NCBI GenBank assembly: GCA_937906345.1
Contig: CALCXY010000035.1
Span: forward strand, 1-49,729
From: Candidatus Woesearchaeota archaeon
GTDB lineage: Archaea; Nanobdellota; Nanobdellia; Woesearchaeales; CALCXY01
DNA: 49,729 nt
Direction: 5' to 3'
Shown here piece by piece: positions 8,022 through 24,688 of this stretch. Made by a program: the position numbers and the translations under genes. Under the pieces are notes generated by a model, which worked only from the letters and a program-made list of their open reading frames with translations, had not been told where the DNA came from and made no database searches. How positions within the stretch are numbered: the first letter of the stretch is position 1; each line of letters opens with the position of its first letter.

Positions 8022-8044
8022 AAGCAATTTGAAATTGTTCATCT

Positions 8045-8092
8045 ATTTAAATCTTTCTGAAAGCTTTACAAGAAATGAAAAGCTTTAAATAG
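8045..8092. promoter_or_regulatory. Divergent promoters with two AAAGCTTT operator-like sites
   Basis: A TATA box at 8045-8053 (reverse strand GATTTAAAT) serves the gene starting at 8021, and TTTAAATAG at 8084-8092 serves the gene starting at 8114. Both are about 26 bases from their ATG, giving leaderless transcripts. Between and over them lie two copies of a site with core AAAGCTTT: 8058-8071 (TGAAAGCTTTACAA) and 8077-8087 (GAAAAGCTTTA). Their centres are 19 bases apart, and the second overlaps the forward TATA box, as a repressor site would. The same 14 bp motif stands upstream of the BlaI/CopY gene (18174-18187). Confidence 0.5.
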
Positions 8093-8113
8093 AAAGAGTT
8101 ATTAAAAGAAAAA

Positions 8114-8770: not shown

Positions 8771-8780
8771 AGGTGTAAGA

Positions 8781-9401
8781 ATGAAAAAAACAAAAAGTAT
8801 ACTTATTATTTTAAGTGTGTTGCTGTTCCTGGGGTGTATGGATCATGCACAAATGGATCATCATGAGGATATTGTAAGAGTTACTATTAACACAGAAGGA
8901 GATCCTGTAAAAGGAAATACAGATGCTCCAGTTACCTTAATAGCGTTTGAAGATTTTCAATGTGGTTATTGTAAAGCGTTTAATTTAGAGATTTTACCAC
9001 AAATGAAAGGATTATTTGATGAAGGAAAAGTTAAACTTGTTTACAAAGATCTTCCTATAGTAAGCAAGCATCCTATGGCTCAAAAAGCTGCTGAAGCTGC
9101 TTTATGTGCTCGAATGCAGGGAAAGTTTTGGGAATACCATGATATTATTTACGAACGACAAAAAGAATTGAGTGTAGAGAATTTAAAAATTTGGGCACAA
9201 GAGTTAAAATTAGATGGATTGGCTTTTGATGAGTGTTTAGATTCAGGAGCAAAAGAACAGGAAGTGTTAGCTGATTTAGAGCTTGGTAAAAGCTTAGGAG
9301 TATCAGCTACACCTACTGTTTACGTAAACGGTAGAAAAATATCTGGTTTAGTAGAATTGGATGAGTATTTTCACTTTATTGAGGAAGAGCTTCAAAACTA
9401 A
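8781..9401 (+). CDS. DsbA/BdbD-like thiol-disulfide lipoprotein
   Basis: About 206 residues from the ATG at 8781, chosen because GAGGTG lies at 8770-8775. The signal peptide ends in a lipobox-like FLGC, and the mature N-terminus is His/Met-rich (MDHAQMDHHED), typical of copper binding. A DsbA-type thioredoxin domain with helical insert follows: active site FEDFQCGYCKAF, further Cys residues in the helical part, and the cis-Pro loop SATPTVYVNGRKISG. Expected role: forming or rearranging disulfides in exported proteins, or reducing metal-bound thiols. It follows the MerT-HMA gene by 10 bases in one operon. Confidence 0.9.
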   Translation: MKKTKSILIILSVLLFLGCMDHAQMDHHEDIVRVTINTEGDPVKGNTDAPVTLIAFEDFQCGYCKAFNLEILPQMKGLFDEGKVKLVYKDLPIVSKHPMAQKAAEAALCARMQGKFWEYHDIIYERQKELSVENLKIWAQELKLDGLAFDECLDSGAKEQEVLADLELGKSLGVSATPTVYVNGRKISGLVELDEYFHFIEEELQN

Positions 9402-9418
9402 ATTTTATTAATCATAAG

Positions 9419-9440
9419 ATATTTTTTTATTAATTTTTTT
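9419..9440 (+). terminator. Oligo-T tract after the MerT-DsbA operon
   Basis: Two runs of seven T (9422-9428 and 9434-9440) follow the stop codon at 9401. Archaeal RNA polymerase terminates at oligo-T tracts without a hairpin. The next gene at 9490 has its own start signals. Inferred from base composition only. Confidence 0.35.
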
Positions 9441-9489
9441 AAATTCATAACTATTATAAACATACACTGATGAATTGAATCTGGGGAAA

Positions 9490-10332
9490 ATGAAAAAAAT
9501 ACTATTACTACCATTGATTTTGCTCTTAGTAGTGAGTGGAGTGAGTTCTCATGGCTATAGAATCAATGATATAAGCTTAGATTGGAACCCAGAGATGAAA
9601 GCAAATGTTTTCAGTGCTGCAAAAGAATTATTGAAGGTTGATGAGGAACCTTATCTTTTAGATTTTGATTATGAATTAATTGTAGTAAAGTATGATAGAA
9701 TAAAAGAATTGAATGCTTGGGTGCATCCTACAACTTTTGAAATTTATGGATATAGGGATGATAGCATTATAAGCAGCGATACTACTGAGAATTTTAATGC
9801 AGAACAACGAAAATCAACAGCCGAACAATCTTTTTTAGATAATGTTCCAAAAGAAATGCAATCAGAATTACAATATAATGGAGAGAAAAAACTCTATCTT
9901 GGAACGTATGAATATGCATGGTTTAGATATGTAGATGGAGCATATGTAGGGAATGATAATTTTGCTGTTGAAATTGATCCTAACAATGGAAAAGTAATTG
10001 CTTGGAGATTAAGTCCTTTCTTAACACCAAAAGAAAAAATAAAGGTTGAAAGTGCAATAAGTCCAGAGGTTGCTCAAAAGATTGCAGAGATAACATTTAA
10101 TGCAGAGCCTACTGATCAAAAACCTTTTTTTATGATAGAATTAGATAAACCTGTATGGACAACTAAAGTTAAAAATATTTATCCTTTTTTTGTTCAAGTA
10201 GATGCAAGAGATGGTAGTATTCATGCATCAGGTGCTGTAAGGAGTGAATTACCTCAAGATTATTCGTTTTCAGATGTTCCTATTGTTGAATCTGGTTTAA
10301 TTAAATCAATTTACGCAGGTGATACTCAATGA
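9490..10332 (+). CDS. Secreted PepSY-like domain protein
   Basis: About 280 residues with a signal peptide (Met-Lys-Lys then a Leu-rich run to SGVSS). Start taken at ATG 9490; GGGG at 9483-9486 lies only three bases upstream, so an in-frame TTG at 9475 remains possible. The middle holds repeated alpha/beta units with strands such as NFAVEIDPNNGKVIAWRLSP and FFVQVDARDGSIHASG, typical of PepSY/YPEB domains, which inhibit proteases or sit near metal and redox proteins. Its end overlaps the cupredoxin gene by four bases (ATGA), so both are probably co-translated. The exact role is unknown. Confidence 0.7.
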   Translation: MKKILLLPLILLLVVSGVSSHGYRINDISLDWNPEMKANVFSAAKELLKVDEEPYLLDFDYELIVVKYDRIKELNAWVHPTTFEIYGYRDDSIISSDTTENFNAEQRKSTAEQSFLDNVPKEMQSELQYNGEKKLYLGTYEYAWFRYVDGAYVGNDNFAVEIDPNNGKVIAWRLSPFLTPKEKIKVESAISPEVAQKIAEITFNAEPTDQKPFFMIELDKPVWTTKVKNIYPFFVQVDARDGSIHASGAVRSELPQDYSFSDVPIVESGLIKSIYAGDTQ

Positions 10333-10799
10333 AACAAAAAATAATTAATTTAGGAATGTTAATTTTATTATTACCTATGCTTTTATTTTCAGGCTGCTCA
10401 AATGGAGATGGTTTAGGTGATGATCCTGATTTTATTAAAGCAAAAAAAATAATTCAAGCAAATATGGATAAATATACAGATGAAGAAGCTTCTGGAGAAT
10501 TAATAGATGGTGTGAGAGTTATTGAAGTAACTGCTTACCAGTTTTATTTTGAACCTACAACTATTATTGTTAATCAAGGTGAAAAAATAAGAATTAAGTT
10601 TTCAAGTGAAGACATTCCTCATGGTTTTGAGATTCATGGCTATGAAATTCCTGGATATGATTTTAATGAACCTGTTAGACCTGGATTTCCTATTGAAATT
10701 GAATTTGAAGCTAAAGAACAAGGAATCTTTGAGTTTATTTGCAGTATTTATTGTGGATTTGGACATAGTGCTATGAAAGGATTGTTTGTTGTGAGGTAA
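10329..10799 (+). CDS. Lipoprotein cupredoxin with CuA-type site
   Basis: 156 residues: lipoprotein signal peptide ending FSGC, a linker, then a cupredoxin domain from about residue 60. The metal ligands of a binuclear CuA site are present: His in SEDIPHGFEI and the C-terminal loop CSIYCGFGHSAMKG (Cys-x3-Cys-x3-His-x2-Met). This matches the soluble part of cytochrome c oxidase subunit II. No oxidase subunit I is in the window, so it may be a free-standing electron carrier or copper chaperone. Second gene of the PepSY-cupredoxin pair; the gene after it is convergent. Confidence 0.9.
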   Translation: MKQKIINLGMLILLLPMLLFSGCSNGDGLGDDPDFIKAKKIIQANMDKYTDEEASGELIDGVRVIEVTAYQFYFEPTTIIVNQGEKIRIKFSSEDIPHGFEIHGYEIPGYDFNEPVRPGFPIEIEFEAKEQGIFEFICSIYCGFGHSAMKGLFVVR

Positions 10800-11441
10800 T
10801 TATTCATCACAATTTTCAGAATGGATGCATGCTTGATAACCTACACTTTTCATCTGTTCATTTGTTTGGGAAATTTTCCCATAACTAATAAGAATTCTAT
10901 CTAAATCATGGAATAGGTAAGAATCTGGATTGATGATCTTTTCTCCATTTACTAAGACTTGTAAAATATTGTCAGAATCAGAGCAATAGGTTTGTTCAAC
11001 ACTTTCTTGTTTTTGAATTAATTCTGGGAAAGAAATACAACTATGATTTAAAGAACCACCAATAACTCTAAAAAACATTCCTAGTCTAACACCTATAGCG
11101 TGAATATGAATAACTCCAGATTGATTCTCTCCTGGGTGCATATGCACAAACCTTGAGAAACCAGAGGTTCTCCAAAACTCAGCAGAACCCCACTCAGGTG
11201 CTTGCAGCTCTGGATATGACATATTAATTTCTTTTCCCTCAATAAAAACTTTATAATCAGCATGAATATGTTGAGAATCTAATAATCCTAAACCAGATAA
11301 GTGTTCTAATTGTTCAGCATAAATAATTCCATTTACAATTTTATCATTTAAAGTAGTTGTGTTACCCTTATATTTAAAATAGAAAAGGATTAAAATCAGG
11401 AATAATATGAAGATTATAATTTTGTAATACTTTTTTTTCAT
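10800..11441 (-). CDS. Membrane-anchored His-rich extracellular protein
   Basis: 213 residues. An N-terminal membrane anchor (residues about 5-24) is followed by an extracellular domain with regularly placed His motifs: SQHIHADYKVFIEG, SRFVHMHPGENQSGVIHIHAIG and LGMFF, then a ubiquitin-like strand ILQVLVNGEKIINPDS. This resembles a widespread secreted family with H-x-H, HTHD and IHIES motifs. The His clusters suggest a metal site, though none is proven. Four Cys in the distal half could form disulfides. It lies between two CuA-type cupredoxin genes, on the opposite strand, with a TATA box near 11464-11473. Copper-related function is inferred from context. Confidence 0.65.
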   Translation of the reverse strand: MKKKYYKIIIFILFLILILFYFKYKGNTTTLNDKIVNGIIYAEQLEHLSGLGLLDSQHIHADYKVFIEGKEINMSYPELQAPEWGSAEFWRTSGFSRFVHMHPGENQSGVIHIHAIGVRLGMFFRVIGGSLNHSCISFPELIQKQESVEQTYCSDSDNILQVLVNGEKIINPDSYLFHDLDRILISYGKISQTNEQMKSVGYQACIHSENCDE

Positions 11442-11587
11442 TGATGGATTGAATATTTGATTGTTTTTATAGTTTTCTTAAATTAAGAATTTATTAGATA
11501 TTTCATTCAAAATTTAATTTTGAAACAGGCAGTAAGATTTAAATACTAGTTCTCTTCATATTGAACTATATTTTAGGGGGGATTATT

Positions 11588-12073
11588 ATGAAAAAAACAA
11601 TGTTATTATTAGCTATGTTAAGTATTTTTATTCTTGCGTGTGGAGGAACTCAAAAAACTGCTCCAGAAAGTCAGGTAGAGAAACAGATTCTTGATGCCTT
11701 AACAACACCTCCAGCTCCACCATCAATAGCTGGAACACCAGCAGATGATGCAGTCCAAGAAACAGAAGTAGTAGCAGATACAACTACCACAAGTGCTAAA
11801 GTAGTTGAGATTGATATGATTGCAAAGCAATTTGAATTTATACCAGGAGTTATTGAAGTGAATGAAGGAGACACTGTTAAGATTCATGTTACAAGCACTG
11901 ATGTTGCACATGGTTTAGCTATTCCAGAGTTTGGAGTAAGGGAAAGCTTTGATAAAGGAGAAATGGTTGATATTGAATTTGTAGCTGATAAGAAAGGAGA
12001 ATTTAATTTCTTTTGTTCAGTTCCTTGTGGATCAGGACATAGAGCTATGAGTGGAACCTTAATTGTTAACTAA
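11588..12073 (+). CDS. Lipoprotein cupredoxin with CuA-type site, second copy
   Basis: 161 residues from ATG 11588, fixed by the strong AGGGGGG at 11575-11581. The signal peptide ends with the lipobox ILAC. A low-complexity Pro/Thr/Ala linker of about 60 residues follows, then the cupredoxin domain. Ligands are the His in STDVAHGLAI and the loop CSVPCGSGHRAMSG, again the CuA pattern. It is a diverged paralogue of the gene at 10329, and the flexible linker would let the domain reach other surface proteins. TATA-like GATTTAAATAC lies at 11536-11546. First gene of the operon that continues with DoxX, Lgt and the DUF255-CcdA fusion. Confidence 0.9.
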   Translation: MKKTMLLLAMLSIFILACGGTQKTAPESQVEKQILDALTTPPAPPSIAGTPADDAVQETEVVADTTTTSAKVVEIDMIAKQFEFIPGVIEVNEGDTVKIHVTSTDVAHGLAIPEFGVRESFDKGEMVDIEFVADKKGEFNFFCSVPCGSGHRAMSGTLIVN

Positions 12074-12074
12074 G

Positions 12075-12527
12075 ATGGGCAAACTAGACAAGTATAGTCA
12101 TAACAGTCATGCAATTATTAGAATAGTGCTAAGCCTTGTTTTTTTATGGTTTGGCACTAATCAACTTTTGCATACTGAAACTTGGGTGAGTTTTTTACCT
12201 GAGTGGGTTTTTTCCTTATCTATGAATCCAAGCAGCATTATTGTTATGAATGGTGTGCTTGAAACTATTTTGGGATTGTTGCTCTTGTTTGGTGTTTTCA
12301 CAAGATTAGTTTCGCTGATACTTGGATTGCATTTATTGAGTATTGCATTTACCGTAGGATATAATGATGTAGGAGTGAGGGATTTTGGATTGGGATTAAT
12401 TACTTTAGCTATCTCATTACATGGTCAAGACTCATTATCTCTTGATAGAAAAATTAAAAATAGCAATTTAAAAAATAATATTTTATTTAGATTAGGATAC
12501 ATCATTGACAGTAAAGATGATCAGTAA
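12075..12527 (+). CDS. DoxX-family membrane protein
   Basis: 150 residues with four membrane helices and the DoxX pattern, including AIIRIVLSLVFLWFGTNQL at the start and a late acidic/aromatic loop. The ATG lies one base after the stop of the cupredoxin gene; a TTG at 12063 inside that gene is less likely. DoxX proteins often accompany electron-transfer or thiol-stress genes, and some act as quinone-linked subunits. Here the context is copper electron carriers and CcdA. Function cannot be assigned more closely. Confidence 0.8.
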   Translation: MGKLDKYSHNSHAIIRIVLSLVFLWFGTNQLLHTETWVSFLPEWVFSLSMNPSSIIVMNGVLETILGLLLLFGVFTRLVSLILGLHLLSIAFTVGYNDVGVRDFGLGLITLAISLHGQDSLSLDRKIKNSNLKNNILFRLGYIIDSKDDQ

Positions 12528-12529
12528 AA

Positions 12530-13327
12530 ATGCCATACACACATGCTATCAACCCAACTCTTTTGGAGTTAGGACCGTTTGAAATTAGGTTTTATGGTAT
12601 TGTGTATGCTTTAGGTTTTTTCTTAGCGTATTGGTTTATTAAGAAAGCGAAAAAACAAGGGCTTTTAGATATTCAGGAAGGAGATATAGATAATTTTATC
12701 ATTTACTTAGCATTAGGCATTATTTTAGGAGCTAGATTAGTTCATGTGTTTTTATGGAATCCTAGTTATTATTTACAAAACCCTCTTGAGATATTAATGA
12801 TTTGGAAAGGTGGCTTAGCTTTTCATGGTGGAATTTTAGGAGGTATGCTTGTTGCATATTGGTTTTGTAAAAAGAAAAATTTATCATTTGGAAGGGTTGC
12901 AGATGTTCTAAGTATTCCAGCAGTATTTGCTCTTGCACTTGGAAGAATAGCTAATTTTATCAATGGAGAGTTATGGGGAACTGTAACTAATGTAAATTGG
13001 TGTGTTAATTTTAAGGGAGCAGAGGGATGCAGACATCCTAGTCAATTATATGCAGCATTTGGAAGATTTGTTGTTTTAGGATTCTTATTAGTATTAAATC
13101 AAAAAAAGAGAAAAGATGGGTTTATTTTTTGGAGTATGTTTGGATTATTAGGGTTAAGCAGATTAATTGTTGATTTTTTTAGAGAAAATGCACGAGTTAT
13201 TGGATTAAGTTTAGGGCAATGGTTAAGTTTAGCTATGGTGATATTAACCTTTTGGGTTTATTTTAAATATTACCGAACTGTTGAAGAAGAAAATGAAGAA
13301 AGTAATGAATCTGAAAAAACTGATTAG
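12530..13327 (+). CDS. lgt: Prolipoprotein diacylglyceryl transferase
   Basis: Lgt moves diacylglycerol from a phospholipid to the lipobox Cys of exported prolipoproteins. The 265-residue, seven-helix protein has all signature blocks: FEIRFYGIVYALGF, GLAFHGGILGG (catalytic His), LGRIANFINGELWG (Arg, Asn and Glu of the Lgt signature), HPSQLY, and an Arg/Glu block near RLIVDFFREN. Length equals bacterial Lgt. Typical Lgt is uncommon in archaea, so transfer from bacteria is likely. It sits two bases after DoxX and overlaps the DUF255-CcdA gene. Eight lipobox proteins in this window are its obvious substrates. No LspA signal peptidase II is in the window. Confidence 0.93.
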   Translation: MPYTHAINPTLLELGPFEIRFYGIVYALGFFLAYWFIKKAKKQGLLDIQEGDIDNFIIYLALGIILGARLVHVFLWNPSYYLQNPLEILMIWKGGLAFHGGILGGMLVAYWFCKKKNLSFGRVADVLSIPAVFALALGRIANFINGELWGTVTNVNWCVNFKGAEGCRHPSQLYAAFGRFVVLGFLLVLNQKKRKDGFIFWSMFGLLGLSRLIVDFFRENARVIGLSLGQWLSLAMVILTFWVYFKYYRTVEEENEESNESEKTD

Positions 13328-15851
13328 TTTTTCCTTGTTATTAATTATTCTCAGTTGTATTGTTTCAGCAGAGAGTAAGTATACAAGGGAAAAATCAGAA
13401 GAGCTGAAAGATCTTATTCATTGGAAAGAGTATTCTCCAGAAACCTTTGACTTAGCAATTAAAGAACAAAAACCAATCTATTTTGTTTTAAGTGCTCCTG
13501 CTTGGTGTTATTGGTGTCATGTTTATGAATCAGAGGATTATTTGTTTCAAAAAGATTTGTATCCTTACATTAATGAGCATTTTATTCCTATATTTGTAGA
13601 TGCAGATAAAAGACCGGACTTAGTAAGAAAATATTTGGAGGGAGGATGGCCAAGCACAACTATTTTCACTCCAAATATGCAGAGGATTGAAGGGTTTACT
13701 GGGCCGAGAGATCCAGTAGGGCTTCTTGAGTATTTAGAAAGTGTAGTAGTATTTATTTCCAATCAAGAATTTACTTTTGAACAACTAGGAATTACTTATG
13801 AAAAAGAAGAAGCAGTTATTCCTTCCCAACAATCACTAGATCAAATAGAGCCTGCTATTCTAGCTTTTGTCAAGGAGAGGTATGATCCTGTGTATGGTGG
13901 AATTGGTTTAGGTGATCTTCCTGAATGGAGAGAAGGGCAAAAGTTTCCACAAACCTTAGGGTATGATTTTTTATTAGAGCAGTTTGAATTGAATCAAAAT
14001 AAGGAATATTTAGATATTGTAACCTTTACTTTTGAAAATCAATATACCTCAAATGAACTTAATCCTTATCGATTATACGATCCTATAGAAGGAGGATTTC
14101 ACAGATATTCTACAAAGAGAGACTGGACTATTCCTCATTATGAAAAAATGCTTTATGATCAAGCTAAGTTTTTAATAGCATTAGCGCATTATGAATCTAT
14201 TAGTTCTAGTAAAATAACAAAGGAAATGTTTGAAGGAACAATTAGCTTTGTTATGGATAAGATGTATGACATGGATGGAGGATTTTATTCTAGTCAAGAT
14301 GCTCATTTAGAAGGAGAATATTTTGAACAATCACAAGAGATTAGAGAAACTTTAGAGCAGCCTTATATTGATAAAACAAAAAATATAGACCTCAATGGGA
14401 TGATGATAAGCTCATTACTTTATGTTAATTCAGTTTCTGAGAATAATTTTGATGAACAGATTAGGAAAACTTTAGATTTTATGGAAAATGAAATGGTTGG
14501 AAAAGAAGGATCATTTTATTATTTTGATTATGAAAAAGAAGAATCATTTCTTACTGGGCAGACGCTTGCAAATTCATATGGATTATTAGCTTTTATTGAA
14601 GGATATGAACATTTTGAGGATGAATCATATTTGAAAACAGCTGAAAAGATTGGGAAATACAGTTTAGACAATTTATTTGATTGGAACTCAGGAGGATTTT
14701 TTGAGAGAAATAGTAAAGATACTGAGTTTTATGCACCTAATGAACGAGTTGATTTATCTAAACCTTATGAAGAGAATGGTGTATTTGCTTATGGAATGTT
14801 AAAACTGTATCTTGCAACTGATAATTTAGAGTATTTAGATGCTGGAATGAAAACTCTTGGCTGGACAATGGTAAGGTTAGGAGGATTAGATCAAAGTTAT
14901 TATGTTGTTGAAGCTGCACAAATTGTGAAGGAAAATAATTTAATTGAAGTGTATAAAAATAATTTAGAGGAGATTAATGGGCTTGTTGAGAAAAGAAAAA
15001 AATCTTTTTTTGTCAATGATTTACTTGATCAAGAAACCAATACCATTAATTTAGAAAATGTACCTCAATTAGGAAGTGAATTTGCAAATGTAGGCTTTAT
15101 TATTCTTTTAATTTTAGCTTTTTTTGCAGGTTTACTTAGTTTTATTTCACCATGCACCTTACCAGTATTAACTGCTTACTTTGCACAAAATGTTCATGCT
15201 AAGCGTGGAGAGATTTTAAAGAATACATTATTGTTCTTCCTTGGTCTTGCGATAGTGTTTTCTATATTTGGAATGGGAGCTACTTTTTTAGGTTCATTAT
15301 TTAGAGAATATCGTTTTGCTTTTACAAAAATAGCTGGAGGAATAATAATTCTTTTAGGAGTTATGCAATTAACTGGAAAGGGTTTTTCGGGTTTGAATTT
15401 GAAAATTAATCATAAAAAATACAATTATGGCTCGTTTTTATTTGGAGCAGTGTTTGCAATAGGGTGGAGTGCTTGTATAGGTCCTATATTGGCTTCTCTT
15501 TTGTTGTTATCAGCAACAACAGAGACTATCTTTAAAGGAACTGTTTTATTGTTTATCTATGCTATAGGACTTGCATTGCCTCTTATCCTTATATCTATGT
15601 GGTTTGATCGCATTAAGAATGTAAAATTTTGGAAAATTGTTCAAGGAAAAATGATTTCTCTAAAAATAGGAAAAGATACTTGGCATTTGCATAGCACTTA
15701 TATTGTATCTGGAATTATTCTCATAATTATTGGAATTCTTATTTTCCAAGATTATTTATTTGCTTTAAATAATTTAACACTCCAAAGTAATTGGGTTCAA
15801 GAAATTATTGTTAAGGGTGAAGAATTAATTAAACAATTGCTTTTATCTTAA
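13293..15851 (+). CDS. Secreted DUF255 thioredoxin/six-hairpin protein fused to CcdA membrane domain
   Basis: About 852 residues in three parts. A signal peptide leads to a DUF255 thioredoxin domain with PAWCYWCHVYE around residues 70-77, then an (alpha/alpha) barrel-like region as in YyaL/SPATA20 proteins to about residue 560. The last ~270 residues form a CcdA/DsbD membrane domain with LLSFISPCTLPVLTAYFAQ and FAIGWSACIGPILAS, each holding one of the paired Cys. DsbD-type domains carry electrons from cytoplasmic thioredoxin to an outer thiol domain, so the N-terminal CxxC is probably the acceptor. Starts at 13281 (TTG), 13293 and 13305 are possible; all overlap lgt. Confidence 0.85.
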   Translation: MKKVMNLKKLISFSLLLIILSCIVSAESKYTREKSEELKDLIHWKEYSPETFDLAIKEQKPIYFVLSAPAWCYWCHVYESEDYLFQKDLYPYINEHFIPIFVDADKRPDLVRKYLEGGWPSTTIFTPNMQRIEGFTGPRDPVGLLEYLESVVVFISNQEFTFEQLGITYEKEEAVIPSQQSLDQIEPAILAFVKERYDPVYGGIGLGDLPEWREGQKFPQTLGYDFLLEQFELNQNKEYLDIVTFTFENQYTSNELNPYRLYDPIEGGFHRYSTKRDWTIPHYEKMLYDQAKFLIALAHYESISSSKITKEMFEGTISFVMDKMYDMDGGFYSSQDAHLEGEYFEQSQEIRETLEQPYIDKTKNIDLNGMMISSLLYVNSVSENNFDEQIRKTLDFMENEMVGKEGSFYYFDYEKEESFLTGQTLANSYGLLAFIEGYEHFEDESYLKTAEKIGKYSLDNLFDWNSGGFFERNSKDTEFYAPNERVDLSKPYEENGVFAYGMLKLYLATDNLEYLDAGMKTLGWTMVRLGGLDQSYYVVEAAQIVKENNLIEVYKNNLEEINGLVEKRKKSFFVNDLLDQETNTINLENVPQLGSEFANVGFIILLILAFFAGLLSFISPCTLPVLTAYFAQNVHAKRGEILKNTLLFFLGLAIVFSIFGMGATFLGSLFREYRFAFTKIAGGIIILLGVMQLTGKGFSGLNLKINHKKYNYGSFLFGAVFAIGWSACIGPILASLLLLSATTETIFKGTVLLFIYAIGLALPLILISMWFDRIKNVKFWKIVQGKMISLKIGKDTWHLHSTYIVSGIILIIIGILIFQDYLFALNNLTLQSNWVQEIIVKGEELIKQLLLS

Positions 15852-16986: not shown

Positions 16987-17760
16987 TCAAGAAACAGATC
17001 TAGAAAATTTAAAAAAAGCATTCATTTTTCTTTTAGCACTAATAATATTTTTATTTGTCTTTTGAATATGAATAGCAAATGCATCTGCTAAGTGTTCTTC
17101 TTTACTCAGTTCTTTATGAAATGTTGAAAAACTTGCTAAAGGTGAGACTAGTTTAAAGAGATTTACTGAGAATTTATACAGAGATGAGCGGTTTTTAATA
17201 TGACCTAGCTCGTGTAGTAAAACAGCTTCTATTTCCTTTCTGTTTAATAAGTCAATTAAACCTAAAGTGATGAAGATTTGAGATTTAACATATTTAATAG
17301 AGAATGCTTGTGGCTTAGCTTCATTAAGAATTTGGATTTGAGGATTTTCTATCTTAAGCTTAATTGCATGTTTTTTAACAAAGTTGTGTATCCAATGTTT
17401 AGCAGCATTATCAGTTTTAATGGATTTTTTCTCAAATCGTTTAATATAAATTAATGGGCCTAAAAATACTCCAAATACTAATGATATAAGTGCTGTTATG
17501 CCTAACATTGTAAGAATTTTCCCTAATTGTGAACAATTATTAAACATAGCTTGGCAGCCTTGGAATAATGCAAAAAATACAAAAGGAAAAATCAATGTAA
17601 ACATGTGAGCATACATTATTCCTAATTTCTTTTTAAAACTAAGTTGTTTATATTTTTTTAATACAATAAAAAGTCCTAATGAGAGTAGTAAAGAAACTAT
17701 CACTAATCCCATCTTAAAAGGGTCATAAAAAAAACTTACCATACATTCGCTGCAAGCCAT
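16987..17760 (-). CDS. Membrane zinc metallopeptidase (M48/M56, BlaR1-like)
   Basis: About 257 residues. Four membrane segments lie in the first half (residues about 15-35, 50-70, 80-105 and on), followed by a cytoplasmic-type protease core with HELGHIKNRSSLYKF and the downstream third ligand region EEHLADAFA. The layout fits M48/M56 peptidases. In bacteria an M56 protein (BlaR1/MecR1) is paired with a BlaI/MecI repressor that it inactivates, and here the repressor gene lies directly upstream. Start ATG 17760 is chosen two bases after the repressor stop and behind GAGAGG. The short N-terminal MACSEC could be a metal site. Confidence 0.8.
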   Translation of the reverse strand: MACSECMVSFFYDPFKMGLVIVSLLLSLGLFIVLKKYKQLSFKKKLGIMYAHMFTLIFPFVFFALFQGCQAMFNNCSQLGKILTMLGITALISLVFGVFLGPLIYIKRFEKKSIKTDNAAKHWIHNFVKKHAIKLKIENPQIQILNEAKPQAFSIKYVKSQIFITLGLIDLLNRKEIEAVLLHELGHIKNRSSLYKFSVNLFKLVSPLASFSTFHKELSKEEHLADAFAIHIQKTNKNIISAKRKMNAFFKFSRSVS

Positions 17761-17761
17761 T

Positions 17762-18112
17762 TTATTTTGAAAACCTCTCGTTAAAGTAAACAGTTGCTGT
17801 TTTACCAAACTTTGTGATCATTTTGTCAACATTGCTCTCTATAATAGATCGTTCAAATTGTTTTTGATCTTTTAATGGAAAATAAATATAACGCAAGCCG
17901 CCACGAGCTGTTTCGACTTCTCTGCCTACAATGCCTTTTTCATGCAACCTATCTAGAATAACTGCTACGCTTGTTAAAGCTACTTTTTGATTAGATTTTA
18001 ATGTGTTAAAAATATCTCTTACTTTGGCTTTCTTTTTCTTCCAAAGTAAATTTAAAACATCGATCTCTAAAGGACTCAGAATAGATTCATATTTTTTAAT
18101 AGTAGCTTTCAT
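17762..18112 (-). CDS. BlaI/MecI/CopY-family winged-helix repressor
   Basis: 116 residues with the BlaI fold. The winged helix covers residues about 10-75 (LSPLEIDVLNLLWKKKKAKV, recognition helix in VALTSVAVILDRLHEKGIV) and a dimerisation helix ends the protein. It lacks the C-terminal CxC metal motif of CopY, so direct metal sensing is not obvious; cleavage by the adjacent membrane peptidase is an alternative, as in BlaI/BlaR1. First gene of an operon with that peptidase and a metal permease. Reverse TATA near 18143-18153 gives a short leader of about 10 bases. Two candidate operators lie just upstream. Confidence 0.88.
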   Translation of the reverse strand: MKATIKKYESILSPLEIDVLNLLWKKKKAKVRDIFNTLKSNQKVALTSVAVILDRLHEKGIVGREVETARGGLRYIYFPLKDQKQFERSIIESNVDKMITKFGKTATVYFNERFSK

Positions 18113-18508: not shown

Positions 18509-18560
18509 GAAAAATATTTAAACCCTTACAAGCTTGTTCACTTTTATTACAAGGGGAGGG
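18509..18560 (+). promoter_or_regulatory. Promoter and strong RBS of the thioredoxin/GGC operon
   Basis: ATATTTAAACC at 18509-18519 is a good TATA box, predicting transcription start near 18540. Just after it, 18526-18535 is a perfect palindrome ACAAGCTTGT, related to the TGTAAAGCTTT sites. A strong ribosome site GGGGAGGG at 18553-18560 precedes ATG 18567 by six bases, fixing that start over an upstream in-frame codon at 18534. Confidence 0.5.
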
Positions 18561-18566
18561 TATACA

Positions 18567-18764
18567 ATGAACAAAATTCAATTAATATTAGTTATTGTGA
18601 TTGGGCTTTTAGTGGTCTTATCAGGATGCTCATCTAGTGGCTATCAAAGCACTGGCGCTGCATCTTACCAAAACAACGAAAAGTATGTTGGTGGTGGATG
18701 TGGAGTAGCACAACCTGCAGAAGGAGACTTACCAACTAGTGGTGGTTTAGCACCTGTGTTGTAA
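18567..18764 (+). CDS. Small lipoprotein with GGGCG motif
   Basis: 65 residues. The signal peptide IQLILVIVIGLLVVLSGC ends in a lipobox. The mature part is only about 45 residues, Ser/Gly/Gln-rich, with one further Cys in YVGGGCGVAQPAEG followed by LPTSGG. Two nearby proteins share the LPT/LPG and GGC elements at their C-termini. It is the first gene of the operon and has the strongest ribosome site. No domain is recognised. It may be an abundant surface thiol carrier or scaffold; this is inference from size and expression signals. Confidence 0.75.
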   Translation: MNKIQLILVIVIGLLVVLSGCSSSGYQSTGAASYQNNEKYVGGGCGVAQPAEGDLPTSGGLAPVL

Positions 18765-18766
18765 CC

Positions 18767-19234
18767 ATGAAAAAACTCACAAAGCATCAATTAATGATGC
18801 AAAAGCAGCGTGAACAAAGTATTCAAGCTCATCAAGAACATGAAGAGCGAGAAGAAAGACACGAATCTATTGCAGAAGAAACAAAAGGTAAAAAAAATAA
18901 AATATTCATGTATTCAGGGATAGCAGCTGTGATCCTTTTGGCGATTGCAAGTATTCCTGTTTACTCATATTATTTCACACCAGGACCTTTCGATGATTTT
19001 GCCAAATGCTTGAAAGAAAATGGAGCAGTTATGTATGGGGCTGATTTTTGCCAATACACAAAAGGTCAAAGAGCAATGTTTGGAAAATCAATGAAACACA
19101 TTAATTATCAAGAGTTCACAGAAGGAGAAGATATAACAGTAACTCCTACCTGGATTATTAAAGGAGAAAGAATTGAAAATGCACAATCATTTGAAGCATT
19201 AGCAAAGTTAACTGGGTGTAAAGCGCCTATTTAG
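18767..19234 (+). CDS. Membrane-anchored thioredoxin-like protein with CQYT active site
   Basis: 155 residues. A charged cytoplasmic segment (residues 1-45, rich in Gln, Glu, Arg and His) precedes one membrane helix (about 46-68). An extracytoplasmic thioredoxin domain follows, with MYGADFCQYTKGQRAMFG, cis-Pro TPTWIIKGERI and a C-terminal Cys (LTGCKAPI). It matches the CGHC lipoprotein at 6734 along its length, but the second active-site Cys is Thr, so it is monothiol, as in some glutaredoxins. Such proteins can hold a mixed disulfide or bind a metal cluster. The ATG follows the previous stop by two bases. Confidence 0.8.
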   Translation: MKKLTKHQLMMQKQREQSIQAHQEHEEREERHESIAEETKGKKNKIFMYSGIAAVILLAIASIPVYSYYFTPGPFDDFAKCLKENGAVMYGADFCQYTKGQRAMFGKSMKHINYQEFTEGEDITVTPTWIIKGERIENAQSFEALAKLTGCKAPI

Positions 19235-19243
19235 GAGGAAAAA

Positions 19244-20023
19244 ATGGAAGAGAAAAAAGAGCACGATGCTCATAAAACACATCATACAGTTCATCATAAA
19301 AAACCAATGTTTAGTAGAAATATTATGATTCTTTTTGGAATTGGAGTTCTCCTTTTACTATTTAATCAATGGCAAATTTCAAGTTTAAATACTATGCTTA
19401 CTTATGGACTTCCTTCAGGAGCAAGTGGAGGTTCAAATTCTGGATCCTCTACTTTAAGTTTAAGTGGAGGAAAATCATTAGATGATGTAAATGTAGAAGA
19501 TATTAAATCTACAGCCCAAGGAATAGCTGCATTATTTGAATTAGATCAAATAAAAAATACTGATGATGCCATAAAATTGATGATTCCTACAGGGACTCCA
19601 GAATATGGAGAAGCTATGGGTGTAACCTTTGATGATCCTGTTACATCTTTAAATAACTTAGCACGAGTTTATCCTGCATTAAAACAACAAGTGCAAGGTG
19701 ATAATCCTGAAGCTTTTGAGAGATTTGCACATCTTGCATCAACACCAAAAGGTATTTCCTGTGAATACTGTTGTGGAATAGGTCCAATTGGGGCAGATGC
19801 TAAGGGTAATAGTAGATGTGGTTGTAAACACAATCCAGGTGTTCTAACACTTGCGTTATGGCTTGTGGCTAACACAGAGTATAATGATGCAGAGGTTTTA
19901 AGAGAAGTATACAAATGGAAAACACTTTGGTTTCCAAAAAATATGGTGACTTTAGCAACTCAGATAGCTGGAGGAGATGACTCAGTATTAAGAGACTTAC
20001 CAGGAATGGTAGGAGGATGTTAG
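19244..20023 (+). CDS. Membrane-anchored Cys-rich protein ending in Val-Gly-Gly-Cys
   Basis: 259 residues. Residues 7-19 are His-rich, a membrane segment spans about 26-42, and a Gly/Ser linker follows. The outer domain contains CEYCCG (Cys173, 176, 177) and RCGCKHNPG (Cys192, 194), spacing suited to metal or cluster binding. The last residues are LPGMVGGC, the same ending as the protein at 20079. The double Cys block recalls the PCYCGC-motif lipoproteins of Bacillus, but only loosely. AGGAGG at 19233-19238 marks the start. It lies between thioredoxin genes, so its cysteines are probably their substrates. Function unknown. Confidence 0.7.
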   Translation: MEEKKEHDAHKTHHTVHHKKPMFSRNIMILFGIGVLLLLFNQWQISSLNTMLTYGLPSGASGGSNSGSSTLSLSGGKSLDDVNVEDIKSTAQGIAALFELDQIKNTDDAIKLMIPTGTPEYGEAMGVTFDDPVTSLNNLARVYPALKQQVQGDNPEAFERFAHLASTPKGISCEYCCGIGPIGADAKGNSRCGCKHNPGVLTLALWLVANTEYNDAEVLREVYKWKTLWFPKNMVTLATQIAGGDDSVLRDLPGMVGGC

Positions 20024-20078
20024 AATATTTTTTTATTTTTACATTAATTATTTAACAAAAACAATAGGAGGAACAAAA

Positions 20079-20315
20079 ATGAAACAAAGCACAATTGTAA
20101 CAATTGTTTTAGTAGCATTAGTATTAATTGCATTAGTTCAAGCTTTCCAAGTAAATGGATTAAAAGGCAAAATTGGACATGCATTAGAAACAGGTGCAGT
20201 ATCAGGAGGTTCTGGAGCTACATCAACTAGCACACAATCTGGATCTGGTTCTAGTGGAGGCGGTAGTTTACCAACTAACATTCAAAACTTACCAACAATG
20301 GTTGGCGGTTGTTGA
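20079..20315 (+). CDS. Short membrane-anchored protein ending in Met-Val-Gly-Gly-Cys
   Basis: 78 residues. One N-terminal membrane helix (residues about 6-24) leads to a Ser/Gly/Thr-rich linker with no fold, and the chain ends NIQNLPTMVGGC. The only Cys is the last residue. The final MVGGC is identical to that of the larger protein at 19244, so this looks like the same anchor and tail without the Cys-rich domain. A strong AGGAGGA ribosome site precedes the ATG. It could display its terminal Cys for lipidation, cross-linking or metal transfer; none is established. No homologue is recognised. Confidence 0.72.
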   Translation: MKQSTIVTIVLVALVLIALVQAFQVNGLKGKIGHALETGAVSGGSGATSTSTQSGSGSSGGGSLPTNIQNLPTMVGGC

Positions 20316-20344
20316 TACTCAAATAAAAAAGGTAAAGAGATACA

Positions 20345-21505
20345 ATGACTGAAAAAAAGTTTAATTTTAAGGATAAGAATACTCTTCTTATCCTCTTATC
20401 TACTATTCTCTTAGTGGTGTTGTTTCTCAGCACTATCCAATTAGGGAGTATTGGAGATATTGTTTCTGGAGAAAAAAAAGAAGTAAAGCTTCCAGAGGTA
20501 AAAGTAACTTTATTAACGGTTGATTGTGAAAAATGCATTGAAATGGATGGAGTAGTAGAAGCTATCTCTAGTGATCCTGTAACCTTAGTAACTGAAAGGG
20601 TTGAAGCTTTTTCAGATGAAGGTAAAAAACTATTAGAAAAATATGAAATTACACAAGTTCCTAATATTATTATTGACGGGCAGCTTTCTCCTGAATTAAT
20701 AACAAATTTTGGTGAATTTTTACAAGATAATGGGAAAGTGTTTACTTTCAAAAACTTACCTGCTCCTTATGTAGATACTCAAACTGAAAAAATTGTTGGA
20801 GAAGTAAGTGTAGTATCTATAGTAGATAAAACTTGCACTATTTGCCAAGAAATTAATCCTTTACTAGGACAACTTGAAAATATTGGTATCTTTATCTCTG
20901 ATAAAAAAGAATTAAATCACGATAGTGATGAAGCAAAAGAACTTATTGAAAAATATGATATTAAAGTTATTCCAACTCTTATTATGAGCAAAGAAGCAAG
21001 ACAATATCCTGATTTAATTGAAGCTTGGGCAGATGTTGGTATTATAGATGCAGATGGATCCTTTGTTTTAACAAATATTTTGCCGCCATATAAAGAAGTA
21101 TCAACAGGGAATTTAGTTGGAAAGGTAAAATTATCAATTTTATTTGATAGTGATTGTGATGAGTGTTACAAACCAGAGGAATTTCATATTCCTATTCTAG
21201 AAAATTTAGGAATTTACATTGATAGCCAAGAAAAAATTGGACTTACAACTGCTAAAGGAAAAGAATTAATTGAAAAATATAGCATCACAAAGATACCGAC
21301 TGTTATTTTAACTGGAGATACTGATTCCTATAAAGCATTCACATCTGTATGGGATAGTGTAGGAACCATTGAAGATGATGGTGCATATGTGTTTAATGGA
21401 TTTCATATTGTAAATGGGCCTTATAAGGATTTAGAGACCAATGAAGTTATTATTCCTGAAACTCCAGATCCAAATGCACAAGCTGCTGCTCAAGTTGCTT
21501 CATAA
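20345..21505 (+). CDS. Membrane-anchored protein with three tandem thioredoxin-like domains
   Basis: 386 residues. One membrane helix (about 13-33) anchors three repeats of roughly 105 residues. Each has a CxxC site and a later cis-Pro: CEKC at 61-64 with VPN at 105-107, CTIC at 164-167 with IPT at 209-211, CDEC at 271-274 with IPT near 317-319. Each repeat ends with a similar LPxPY linker. Three redox centres in a row suggest an electron relay from the CcdA protein encoded next to substrates outside the cell. Each repeat resembles the glutaredoxin-like half of PDO proteins. Catalytic direction is unknown. Confidence 0.85.
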   Translation: MTEKKFNFKDKNTLLILLSTILLVVLFLSTIQLGSIGDIVSGEKKEVKLPEVKVTLLTVDCEKCIEMDGVVEAISSDPVTLVTERVEAFSDEGKKLLEKYEITQVPNIIIDGQLSPELITNFGEFLQDNGKVFTFKNLPAPYVDTQTEKIVGEVSVVSIVDKTCTICQEINPLLGQLENIGIFISDKKELNHDSDEAKELIEKYDIKVIPTLIMSKEARQYPDLIEAWADVGIIDADGSFVLTNILPPYKEVSTGNLVGKVKLSILFDSDCDECYKPEEFHIPILENLGIYIDSQEKIGLTTAKGKELIEKYSITKIPTVILTGDTDSYKAFTSVWDSVGTIEDDGAYVFNGFHIVNGPYKDLETNEVIIPETPDPNAQAAAQVAS

Positions 21506-21542
21506 TTACTAATTATTATTTAATTATTAATTGAGGATGATT

Positions 21543-22520
21543 ATGAAATCTAAAAAATTCCTATTTTTTTATTTAATAATGTTCTTGATACTTATGAGTA
21601 GTTTAGTATTAGCTCAAAGTGACTTGCCTATTGGAATACAAAAAATTATTGAATATAATTTTCAAACGAGTTATGAAATTTTATTGAGTGTTTCTTTTTT
21701 TGTAGCTTTTGTTGCAGGAATATTGGGAATACTTAGTCCATGCATTTTGCCTTTTATCCCTGCTTATTTTTCATATAGTTTCAAAGAAAAAAAGAACATT
21801 ACGAAGATGACTCTAATTTTCTTTTTAGGATTTTCAGCTGTTTTTGTTACTATGGGAATTATAGCAGGGTTTATAGGAGAGCAATCTCTTTTATTGCTGC
21901 AAGCTCCTTGGATTGTAAGATTAGCTGGAGCATTTTTAGTGATTATGGGAATAATAACAGCTTTAGGTTTAGGTTTTGAAGGACTCTTTAAACATAAAGT
22001 AAAACCTGCTAATGATAATATAGGAACTTTTCTCTTTGGAATGTTTTTTGCATTAGGATGGAGTGCTTGTTTAGGTCCAATTTTAGCAGGAATATTAGGA
22101 ATTGGAGTGTATCTTCATAATTGGTTTTACTCAGGAATCTTATTATTATTTTATTCTCTCGGGAATTTAGCACCTCTTTTCCTTCTCGCTATTTATTGGG
22201 ATAAACATCATTTAGAAAATAGTAAATGGCTTAAAGGAAAAGTGTATACATTCAAGATATTAGGTAAAAAATTCTATACTGTTACCATAAAAATCATATC
22301 AGGTTTACTTTTTATTTTAATAGGAGTAGTAATGCTTATCTACAAAGGAACATCTGTTGTAAATACATGGGATGTTTTTAATACTAAGCAATATTTTTAT
22401 CTTTTACAAGAAAAGCTTATAGCCTGGCAGTATAATAATATATTAGGAGCAGTATTATTTATCATTTTCATTGGATTATTGTATTGGGGTTTGAAAAGAA
22501 AAAAGAGGAATAAAGAATAG
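21543..22520 (+). CDS. ccdA: CcdA/DsbD-type transmembrane electron carrier
   Basis: About 325 residues. A signal peptide or first helix precedes a CcdA core with GILGILSPCILPFIPAYFSY and FALGWSACLGPILAG, each holding one of the two reactive Cys in Pro-rich helix kinks. C-terminal helices extend beyond the minimal family. CcdA passes electrons from cytoplasmic thioredoxin to thiol proteins outside. It directly follows the triple-thioredoxin gene, the natural acceptor. GAGG at 21533-21536 and spacing support ATG 21543 over TTG 21531. It is closely similar in its motifs to the C-terminal domain of the fusion protein at 13293. Confidence 0.9.
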   Translation: MKSKKFLFFYLIMFLILMSSLVLAQSDLPIGIQKIIEYNFQTSYEILLSVSFFVAFVAGILGILSPCILPFIPAYFSYSFKEKKNITKMTLIFFLGFSAVFVTMGIIAGFIGEQSLLLLQAPWIVRLAGAFLVIMGIITALGLGFEGLFKHKVKPANDNIGTFLFGMFFALGWSACLGPILAGILGIGVYLHNWFYSGILLLFYSLGNLAPLFLLAIYWDKHHLENSKWLKGKVYTFKILGKKFYTVTIKIISGLLFILIGVVMLIYKGTSVVNTWDVFNTKQYFYLLQEKLIAWQYNNILGAVLFIIFIGLLYWGLKRKKRNKE

Positions 22521-22530
22521 GGGATATCAT

Positions 22531-23334
22531 ATGAAAAGTAATTTTTTAGGATTTTTATCACTCATTAAAAAAGAGTATCAACTCTTTTCATTTATGTTGC
22601 TTTTCGATGTTTTATTTATTCTCCTTGTTGTTAATATTAGAATTTTAGCCTTAGGCTTTATTGAGATCATAAGTCCATTATTAGCATATACCCCTCCAGG
22701 AGTTCAATATTTTTTCTCAGTGATTATATTTCTCATTGTTATGTATATTTTTATCTTGATTCATATTGTATTCAAATACTTAGTGGTAGGTAAAAGTTTT
22801 GAAATACTTCACAAAGAAAAAAAGGAGAATCTTAAACAATTTATTAAATTGAATTTGATGATTTACACACCAATCTTAGTTTTATTAGTTTTTTTAATTG
22901 TGATTAATCCAACAATTTACTCTTGGCTTTCAATTCAAAATCTAGGGAGATTGTTTATTCCTGCAACTATTCTCCTTATTGTTTTTGTAATTGGAATATT
23001 ATATCTTTACACCCTTATCAATTTTATTCAGGTAAAAGCATTTAATTTTGACTCCATAAAAACAATTATTAAAAGAGCTTTTAAGAAAACTACATCTGCA
23101 AAAGTCTATGGTTTTTATTGGTTTGACATTAAAGTGATTATAGGATATGTTATTTTCTTTATCATTGTTACATTAATTGCAAGATCTTATCTTTTTACTA
23201 CAACAAATGCATATGTAAATTACATGGGACCATACAAAAGCTTTATATCCTTTACCTCATACCTTATTGGATATATTATCCTTTTATATAATCGGTTAAG
23301 TTTTGTTAAAAATGGTTCCATATCAAGCAGTTAG
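22531..23334 (+). CDS. Six-helix membrane protein of unknown function
   Basis: 267 residues with about six membrane segments and basic loops; no Cys, no catalytic motif and no recognised family. GGGGAT shortly before ATG 22531 is a plausible ribosome site. It lies ten bases after the CcdA gene, and its 3' end overlaps the Lgt-like gene by about 23 bases, so it is a true operon member. It might be a scaffold or an anion/lipid transporter; nothing in the sequence decides. Confidence 0.6.
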   Translation: MKSNFLGFLSLIKKEYQLFSFMLLFDVLFILLVVNIRILALGFIEIISPLLAYTPPGVQYFFSVIIFLIVMYIFILIHIVFKYLVVGKSFEILHKEKKENLKQFIKLNLMIYTPILVLLVFLIVINPTIYSWLSIQNLGRLFIPATILLIVFVIGILYLYTLINFIQVKAFNFDSIKTIIKRAFKKTTSAKVYGFYWFDIKVIIGYVIFFIIVTLIARSYLFTTTNAYVNYMGPYKSFISFTSYLIGYIILLYNRLSFVKNGSISSS

Positions 23335-24688
23335 CTACTTTACATTTGCATCTTTTACATTGTATCTGTATAGCTTGATGATTCTCATTGGTGTTGTTGT
23401 AGGATATTTTATTTTTGTTGGAGAAATTAAAAGAAATAAATTAGATTATTCTAAAAGTTTAAGTTTAGTTTTTTGGCTGTTATTAGGAGTATTTTTTGGT
23501 TCTCGTGCTTTTTTTCAATTTGGTCCTTGGAATCAAAATGAAATTTCATTTTTGCAAGGAATTCTAAAAACATTCATACCTTGGATGGGATCTGGATATG
23601 TGATGTTAGGAGGAGCTACTGGAGGAATACTAGCTGCTTGGATCTATCTTAAGATTCATAAGATGCATTTTTTTAGATATATGGATCTCCTTAGTATAAG
23701 TAGTGCACTTGCAATGGTTTTTGGAAGGTTTGGATGCTTTTTTGCATTTGATCATCCAACAACTGCAACGAGTTTACCTTGGGCATTACAACTTGGAGAA
23801 CAGAGTTTTCATCCCACAATGATTTATGCTAGTATTTTCTATTTTCTTTTATTCTTATTCTTAATGAGTCTAAATAGAAATAAACTTTATGATGGACAGA
23901 TTTTTCTCACAACAATGGTTTTATTTCCCTTAGCAAGGTTTTTAATGGAATTTACAAGAATTTACGATACTTTATTTTTTGGTTTAAGTGCATCGCAAAT
24001 AATTAGTTTAACATTTCTTGTTATTTTTGTTCCCATGTATTATCATTTTAATAATGCAATTCATAAAAAAGTTCAGCAAAAACCTATTAAGATGGATTTT
24101 CTTTTATTTAGCATATCTGGAGTGATTTTAATTGGTGCTGTTTACTTTGTAAGTGCTTGGAATTATACGTATTCATTTATTTTATTTGTTTTAGGATTAA
24201 TACTATTACTACATTCAATCTTTAAAACTTACTCTATTACTTTTAAAACTATTAAATCAAATGATGCAATAAAGAATTTAGTTGTTATAGGTGTTACGCT
24301 TATTATATTATTTTCTCTATCCGCTGTTATTCAGCGAGTTGTAGGATCTACGCTTGATAAACCTTATTTACAAGATTGTCCTCACAAGCAAATTGGTAAT
24401 AATGAATCAAATATTTATATTATGTATTTTGAAAGTCCTTACTGCACATTATGCTGGCAAAATGAGATTTTTGTTTTTCCTAAATTAGAGGAAAATATGA
24501 TTGATGAGTATTACATGGAACATTTTGATATCAGACATTGCAGTGAAATTAGTAGTAGCTTTGGAATATATGGAACTCCTGGCTATGTCATGGAAAATAC
24601 AGATACAGGATTACAATTTATCTATTATGGTTTTAGAAGTTATGAACAAATTAAGAGAGATATTGAGGAGTTGAAAAAGAGGGAGTAA
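23312..24688 (+). CDS. Lgt-like membrane protein fused to a C-terminal thioredoxin-like domain
   Basis: 458 residues from ATG 23312. The first ~260 residues follow the Lgt plan: Tyr-rich helix, GYVMLGGATGGIL, VFGRFGCFFAF, FHPTMIY and LARFLMEFTR. Compared with the Lgt at 12530, the catalytic His before the Gly pair is Leu and the Asn of the GR-x-x-N signature is Cys, while both Arg remain. Two extra helices lead to a thioredoxin-like domain with SPYCTLCWQNE and cis-Pro YGTPGYV. So it is Lgt-related but unlikely to do the standard reaction. As part of the GGC-protein operon it may modify or reduce a Cys. I know of no described fusion of this kind. Confidence 0.8.
   Translation: MVPYQAVSYFTFASFTLYLYSLMILIGVVVGYFIFVGEIKRNKLDYSKSLSLVFWLLLGVFFGSRAFFQFGPWNQNEISFLQGILKTFIPWMGSGYVMLGGATGGILAAWIYLKIHKMHFFRYMDLLSISSALAMVFGRFGCFFAFDHPTTATSLPWALQLGEQSFHPTMIYASIFYFLLFLFLMSLNRNKLYDGQIFLTTMVLFPLARFLMEFTRIYDTLFFGLSASQIISLTFLVIFVPMYYHFNNAIHKKVQQKPIKMDFLLFSISGVILIGAVYFVSAWNYTYSFILFVLGLILLLHSIFKTYSITFKTIKSNDAIKNLVVIGVTLIILFSLSAVIQRVVGSTLDKPYLQDCPHKQIGNNESNIYIMYFESPYCTLCWQNEIFVFPKLEENMIDEYYMEHFDIRHCSEISSSFGIYGTPGYVMENTDTGLQFIYYGFRSYEQIKRDIEELKKRE

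Follow-up and report, generated by a model that had tools for sequence, protein, structure and literature searches.

An operon with two MVGGC-tailed membrane proteins

We analyzed a 49,729-nucleotide stretch of DNA (hereafter the window) from contig CALCXY010000035.1 of a Candidatus Woesearchaeota archaeon, focusing on an operon that encodes two membrane-anchored proteins, TailA and TailB, both ending in the pentapeptide MVGGC. The operon comprises eight open reading frames (ORFs), all on the plus strand, which are separated by 2–55 bases or overlap and are bracketed by two minus-strand genes. Its features are as follows (TM, transmembrane; E, expectation value):

18567..18764, +, small lipoprotein with an ATG start, an N-terminal ...VLSGC and an internal ...YVGGGCGV...; accessory gene, usually found with the monothiol thioredoxin
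18767..19234, +, membrane-anchored monothiol thioredoxin-like protein with CxYT for CxxC and a conserved Cys near the C-terminus (LTGC); weak Thioredoxin_4 match
19244..20023, +, TailA, with an N-terminal TM anchor and a helical domain (CEYCCG...CGCxH), ending in LPGMVGGC
20006..20020, +, MVGGC tail of TailA, found by pattern search; Met-to-Gln change in common with TailB
20079..20315, +, TailB, with one TM helix and a disordered Gly/Ser/Ala/Pro linker, ending in LPTMVGGC
20298..20312, +, MVGGC tail of TailB, found by alignment and pattern search
20345..21505, +, Trx3 (triple thioredoxin), three thioredoxin domains behind an N-terminal TM anchor; above cut-off for PF13192 and PF00085
21531..22520, +, CcdA/DsbD-type transmembrane thiol electron carrier; PF02683, E 1.5e-16
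22531..23334, +, multi-TM protein without a Pfam or NCBIfam family; not conserved as part of the unit
23303..24688, +, Lgt-like membrane domain (PF01790, E 2.9e-36) with a thioredoxin-like domain (CTLC; PF00085 only at E 0.016)

An earlier note on this DNA had listed the two identical tails, the GGGCG motif of the lipoprotein and the order of the thioredoxin, CcdA and Lgt-like genes, and all eight ORFs were present as it stated. The lipoprotein ORF has an alternative opening from a TTG at 18534, and relatives with the GGGCG motif occur in about a dozen other loci of the survey described below; the multi-TM protein at 22531 had a phmmer relative in only one (L107). Family searches put names on CcdA, the thioredoxin domains and the Lgt-like domain only. 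CcdA belongs to the DsbD_TM family, with TM cysteines in SPCILPF and SACLGPIL, and each of the three Trx3 domains carries the CxxC of thioredoxin-fold oxidoreductases (CEKC, CTIC and CDEC). The 18767 protein lacks this motif, its sequence being CQYT; nearly all of its TailA-linked relatives are likewise CxYT, and CPHC paralogues are located elsewhere.

Neither TailA nor TailB gave a credible match in Pfam, NCBIfam or PHROGs, and TailA matched neither PDB sequences nor, at E 0.001, PDB folds. The AlphaFold2 model of TailA (mean predicted local distance difference test score [pLDDT] of 83, with 156 residues at 90 or more) consisted of a TM helix, a disordered segment (residues 56–75) and a confident helical domain. 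That of TailB had a single helix (residues 3–37), followed by a linker with pLDDT mostly below 50 and then the tail. Kinship of TailA with the PCYCGC-motif lipoproteins (PF13798), one of which adjoins TailA in L138 and L139, was not supported (hhalign probability 0.8%).

Conservation and concerted change of the tail

MVGGC was invariant in the first alignments of TailA and TailB (26/26 sequences each, mostly ~36–58% identical to the window protein). The tail cysteine, whose conservation the earlier note had proposed to check, is thus conserved to the last residue; in TailA, Cys-173, Cys-176, Cys-177, Cys-192, Cys-194, His-196 and Trp-225 were also invariant. Searching 193 genomes of the window's order for MVGGC followed by a stop codon at the DNA level gave 133 matches in 54 genomes (hereafter tailed genomes), nearly always as two or more adjacent genes, as against two matches for the reversed pattern. 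Four of these matches lie in the window's own genome and form two systems, on contigs C35 and C11. As a rule, two to four membrane-anchored proteins per genome end in MVGGC, and the pentapeptide caps at least two protein types, namely TailA with its globular Cys-rich domain and TailB-like proteins with a TM helix and a disordered linker.

In about 210 tails, all four valine, all four glycine and both cysteine codons as well as all three stop codons occur. Since the peptide is fixed while synonymous positions vary, selection acts on the peptide. The tail DNA might be taken for a conserved Shine–Dalgarno or overlapping regulatory element with the peptide as its by-product, as GGAGG is present in 89 of the 210 tails and only a short distance often separates the tail from the start of the following gene. 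We rejected this explanation as having a negligible probability, because GGAGG occurs in only those 89 tails, wobble positions are free, Met, Val and Cys are invariant too, tails are also found a long way from the following start codon, and several gene families have this one peptide as their end.

The TailA profile matched at E ≤ 0.001 in 57 of the 193 genomes, including two (G042 and G096) in which the match covered the N-terminal TM region only and which were left out of later counts. Tail and TailA domain occur together in 53 genomes, as against one genome with the tail only and two with the domain only; these exceptions are G120 and G095, both at contig ends, and G074 (IVGEC). Given this near-perfect co-occurrence, the TailA domain is, of the partners examined, the one constant candidate for a reader or acceptor of the tail. 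The 106 TailA ends comprised 94 MVGGC, 3 QVGGC (97/106 with either), 1 IVGEC and 7 tail-less ends and 1 frameshifted end, apparently that of L112, where MVGGC is present in another frame. At L123:4796-5401, a TailA homologue ends in IVGEC; no TailB was found in its vicinity, and neither Lgt nor an MVGGC tail was detected in that genome. The seven tail-less proteins are homologues without the terminal cysteine, which the earlier note had counted as evidence against its proposal; a tailed neighbor lies beside each of them, indicating that the tail can be supplied in trans.

At all three loci with QVGGC, the Met-to-Gln change is found in both partners, and none of the 91 loci with both tails is discordant. 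The three loci fall at separate places on a TailA tree built without the tail residues, which implies that each gene has changed three times. At these loci, the two genes use different Gln codons and different wobble bases downstream of them, which argues against gene conversion. Single QVGGC pattern matches in G371, G114 and G043 are not ORF ends and were excluded, and the QVGGC loci in G195 and G375, whose contigs are equal in length to those of L064 and L113, were taken as the same contigs.

The concerted Met/Gln change, the recurrence of two to four tails per locus and their supply in trans would suit a noncovalent docking tag as well, with a PDZ-like or other reader binding the C-terminus to assemble an envelope complex and the cysteine being read as shape. 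This is very unlikely given that Cys is kept even in the odd variant IVGEC, that the VGGGCG of the lipoprotein is internal rather than terminal and that the genomic context is one of thiol and metal chemistry.

An identical tail on several protein types that changes in concert is also what a common modifying enzyme would leave, and VGGC resembles a lipobox. An enzyme might therefore read it as such, lipidate or otherwise modify the cysteine and anchor the C-terminus, and there is a precedent in MYXO-CTERM, for which an Lgt-like enzyme has been proposed to lipidate a Cys in the C-terminal region (PMC11980579). Lgt is common in the order (179/193 genomes), and the window encodes a canonical Lgt besides the fusion at 23303:

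12530..13327, +, canonical Lgt with AFHGG and GRIANFINGE motifs; TIGR00544 above cut-off

The canonical enzyme is the likely lipidator of the N-terminal lipoproteins. The 23303 protein has the Lgt domain similarity listed above; however, it falls below the TIGR00544 cut-off (67.6 vs 118.9 bits) and carries YVMLGG in place of AFHGG and GRFGCFFAFDH in place of GRIANFINGE, and so lacks both the catalytic HGG motif and the conserved GRxxNFxNxE segment. The fusion had no counterpart in the other loci or genomes examined and, among these, is private to the window's genome; the "LgtT" matches in L078, L083 and L095 represent the thioredoxin domain alone. Lgt itself was not associated with the tail (52/54 tailed vs 127/139 other genomes; p = 0.36) and was undetected even at E 10 in the tailed genomes G142 (99% complete) and G132 (90%). 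These results led us to discard Lgt-mediated lipidation of the tail and, with it, the part that the earlier note had given to the Lgt-like protein. More generally, a C-terminal modification or anchoring signal is improbable, as the tailed proteins already have a TM anchor and no hydrophobic or basic segment follows the cysteine. The latter also sets the tail apart from the tripartite C-terminal sorting signals of sortases, rhombosortases, archaeosortases and myxosortases, in which a TM helix and a basic cluster follow the motif.

Partners and the association with copper genes

A scan of 84,980 species genomes yielded 71 loci, labelled for instance as Woesearchaeota, Pacearchaeota, Micrarchaeota, Diapherotrites, Aenigmatarchaeota, Altiarchaeota and Nanoanaerosalina metagenome-assembled genomes (MAGs). 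Three loci with bacterial labels were taken to be mis-binned or misnamed; the neighborhood was examined for L050, which has it in common with the archaeal L063 and L071. Clustering of the neighbors in the 71 loci showed that TailA, TailB, Trx3 and CcdA recur together, CcdA adjoining TailA in most loci; the pair of lipoprotein and monothiol thioredoxin is present in some loci and cupredoxins in others. The proposal of the earlier note that the eight genes form one system was thus not supported; they are not a single conserved unit, and the core consists of TailA, TailB and, usually, Trx3 and CcdA.

Per-genome counts, which are uncorrected for relatedness here and in the two comparisons that follow, associated Trx3 with the tail (38/54 tailed vs 11/139 other genomes; odds ratio [OR] 28). 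Since Trx3 is absent from 16 of the 54 tailed genomes and 11 of the 49 Trx3 genomes have no tails, Trx3 and CcdA are frequent but not obligatory partners. The independent occurrence that the earlier note had named as a test therefore applies to Trx3, while the tailed genes themselves are linked. Some Trx3 matches contain an in-frame TGA; selenocysteine was considered and dismissed, as the ORF examined (G000:C11) closes normally at the match end.

The same comparison for metal genes showed DUF411 in 34 of 54 tailed genomes vs 3 of 139 others (OR 77, p = 2e-20), such that 34 of the 37 DUF411 genomes are tailed, and CuA cupredoxins in 38 of 54 vs 36 of 139 (OR 6.8, p = 2e-8). A copper role for DUF411 is taken from its gene context, in the loci described here and in a Burkholderia island, rather than from functional study. 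CopA, Met/His-rich and MerT-like proteins are also found among the genes of tailed loci. A second TailA clade, often without Trx3, has as neighbors a membrane MarR-type regulator, DUF411, a CPLC membrane protein, CopA-type ATPases and Met/His-rich proteins.

The window encodes two CuA-type cupredoxins, which would provide the client expected in the neighborhood of a CuA maturation system:

11561..12073, +, CuA-type cupredoxin lipoprotein (CSVPCGSGHRAM), candidate copper client; PF00116 (E 2.2e-8) and PF13473
10329..10799, +, second CuA-type cupredoxin lipoprotein (CSIYCGFGHSAM); PF13473 and PF00116

They lie in an upstream metal/thiol island (7083-15851) together with genes for a YtkA-like protein, a MerT-like protein with an HMA-type motif, a DsbA-like protein, a DoxX-like protein, the canonical Lgt and a DsbH–CcdA fusion. 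The resemblance to MerT is weak. An ArsP-type permease is encoded in the window as well.

The closest relative of TailA outside the tailed family, found by comparing a profile with a single sequence (probability 79%, E 1.6e-5), has a Cys close to its C-terminus. Its homologue in Burkholderia contaminans lies in a copper island with cueR and genes for a P-type ATPase, CcdA, thioredoxin, TlpA, SCO and DUF411. It belongs to a TailA-like "CCNN" family without a Pfam or NCBIfam entry, which occurs in one archaeon of the order (L119:1650-2534, minus strand) and on Burkholderia and Paraburkholderia plasmids (NZ_CP090638.1, 137262-138212), with SCG near the C-terminus and inside copper or mercury islands.

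Several further observations were made at these loci. Extra MVGGC-tailed proteins of the second clade (TailC arms) carry a Met/His motif before the tail (WTENEKMNYEMHGTIPARL or YEQMMARMHPEQ; MNYEMHG and MMARMHP) that resembles short copper-binding peptides (L119:5251-5559, L139:5612-5881, L132:189-473 and L149:4635-4964). Some tailed proteins have a vicinal Cys pair (DCCK, NCCG or GCCS) at the presumed cytoplasmic N-terminus (L116:665-937, L120:1804-2139, L144:4551-4880 and L148:4119-4457). In two clades of the TailA tree, some TailA proteins are fused to multi-TM domains with GCPSCG or CPVCQ, possibly a metal or thiol membrane carrier (L088:9344-10747, L101:9347-10738 and L135:10007-11245). 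Two neighbor families had no Pfam match: one of 169 residues with a conserved EEWCISKHLLAASMR and a C-terminal DCCKE(W) (L119:6576-7085, L135:2700-3203 and L140:1529-2020), and a multi-TM family of ~174 residues with HCPLCT near the N-terminus, recurrent beside clade-2 TailA (L119:6047-6583 and L139:3838-4335). A BlaI-type regulator and an adjoining membrane metallopeptidase-like gene, divergent from the tailed operon (window 16987-18112, minus strand), were found again near TailA in several other loci.

A proposed thiol-tipped arm and its relation to known systems

We propose, with a probability of about 0.5, that the MVGGC tails serve as extracytoplasmic arms, tipped with a thiol, for binding and relaying Cu(I) or a similar soft metal. 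In this model, TailA, TailB and variants of the two would be single-span membrane proteins with the N-terminus inside and the C-terminus outside, presenting the Cys thiol at the tip of a flexible arm that shuttles metal between the Cys/His-rich domain of TailA and clients or transporters. One common partner, most simply the TailA domain itself, would read all arms. At loci of the window type, CcdA may carry electrons across the membrane to Trx3 and the monothiol thioredoxin, which would keep the thiols of the arms and of their likely clients, the CuA-type cupredoxins, reduced. In the second clade, copper tolerance is the probable role of the same arms, which would act there together with DUF411, CopA and metal-binding partners. 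The model draws on analogy with TlpA and CcdA in bacterial CuA assembly (PMC9145763) and with MerA, whose C-terminal cysteines deliver metal (PMC4500099). It is the best reading of the disordered linker, the invariant tail, its concerted change and supply in trans, its co-occurrence with the TailA domain, the association with DUF411, CuA proteins and Trx3, the CopA, Met/His-rich and MerT-like neighbors, the TailA fusions to multi-TM domains, the Met/His motifs and the TailA-like protein of the Burkholderia copper island.

Several points weigh against this proposal. DUF411 had no match in the window's own genome, and Trx3 is missing from the 16 tailed genomes mentioned above. The replacement of Met by Gln argues against Met as an essential copper ligand. 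When only well-supported branches are considered, one of the three Gln comparisons is left as an independent pair, so that the statistics are modest, though every case agrees. Residues covarying with Met/Gln were sought in TailA, Trx3 and CcdA across the three loci, and none was convincing. The link of TailA to the Burkholderia protein, with its profile-to-single-sequence probability of 79%, suggests remote similarity only.

The same components could form a pure thiol–disulfide relay, in which the tail cysteine has no metal role and instead forms mixed disulfides with thioredoxin cysteines. It would then either swing as a redox arm or stand in for the resolving Cys that the monothiol thioredoxin lacks. 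Trx3 and CcdA adjoin most loci of TailA clade 1, the linked thioredoxin is consistently of the CxYT monothiol type, and the TailB linker is flexible. We nevertheless consider such a relay unlikely, because tailed genomes without Trx3 are numerous, the second clade is accompanied by DUF411 and metal genes instead, and the DUF411 association is very strong. The earlier note had suggested an extracellular thiol relay that loads or modifies the cysteine. An extracytoplasmic thiol system remains the best reading; modification of the cysteine need not be invoked. More broadly, and tentatively, MVGGC may represent a new class of archaeal C-terminal recognition signal, in which a dedicated reader on the outside of the membrane acts on the terminal Cys by metal loading or covalent modification, and which several proteins share in trans and which does without the TM-plus-basic tail of known sorting signals.

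In DPANN archaea, whose genomes are small, many genes have no known function, and here a whole module, including a TailA domain without a Pfam, NCBIfam or PDB match, can be defined by a five-residue signature that is exactly searchable. If the arms carry copper or exchange disulfides, they would constitute a peptide-encoded, membrane-tethered thiol carrier system of the archaeal surface, and this system would be tied to the CuA proteins for which a role in N2O chemistry has been proposed in DPANN (PMC10936187). The concerted Met-to-Gln change and the supply of tails in trans make a common reader testable.

In line with the earlier note, which knew of no described system with such a content, literature searches found the string MVGGC in unrelated papers only and no description of the tail or module, and those on PCYCGC, Woesearchaeota C-terminal sorting and DUF411 gave nothing on the tailed system. 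To our knowledge, there is no other invariant terminal-Cys pentapeptide that is common to several membrane-anchored proteins and changes in concert, and we know of no counterpart of the MVGGC-tailed proteins or the TailA domain in the bacterial CcdA/TlpA(–Sco) pathway. The "NosZ-like" CuA proteins of DPANN are described with a CX3CX3H CuA motif, which the window's cupredoxins fit, and MAGs labelled ETNP are among the tailed loci; the tailed proteins are not described in the part of that source used here, and the window's cupredoxins would be their clients by our proposal only (PMC10936187). The 23303 protein resembles Lgt in its domain and differs from it in lacking HGG, in its thioredoxin fusion and in being found in no other genome examined. 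The Burkholderia and Paraburkholderia plasmid proteins (WP_027810704 and WP_028197075; CCNN family) resemble TailA in profile, in their SCG near the C-terminus and in their copper or mercury islands with CcdA and thioredoxin genes, whereas their Cys is not terminal, no TailB accompanies them and the similarity is remote.

Like the signals of the MYXO-CTERM/myxosortase, GlyGly-CTERM/rhombosortase and PGF-CTERM/archaeosortase systems, MVGGC is a short conserved C-terminal motif on otherwise different proteins, and the MYXO-CTERM signal also contains an invariant Cys. Unlike them, it ends in its Cys on proteins anchored at the N-terminus, and it occurs on two to four proteins per genome rather than on dozens. 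In MerA, flexible C-terminal thiols of one subunit deliver a soft metal to the acceptor site of the other (PMC4500099), a hand-over that the tailed proteins may resemble; these are not homologous to MerA, involve no flavoenzyme and carry a single terminal Cys on separate, membrane-tethered proteins. A parallel in gene content is bacterial CuA maturation, in which TlpA reduces the CuA cysteines and copper loading requires reduced thiols (PMC9145763): here too, CcdA and extracytoplasmic thioredoxins share a neighborhood with CuA-type cupredoxins, although many tailed genomes lack Trx3. The CcdA, thioredoxin and cupredoxin parts are known, and the biochemical role of the tailed system could turn out to be a variation on copper and thiol homeostasis.

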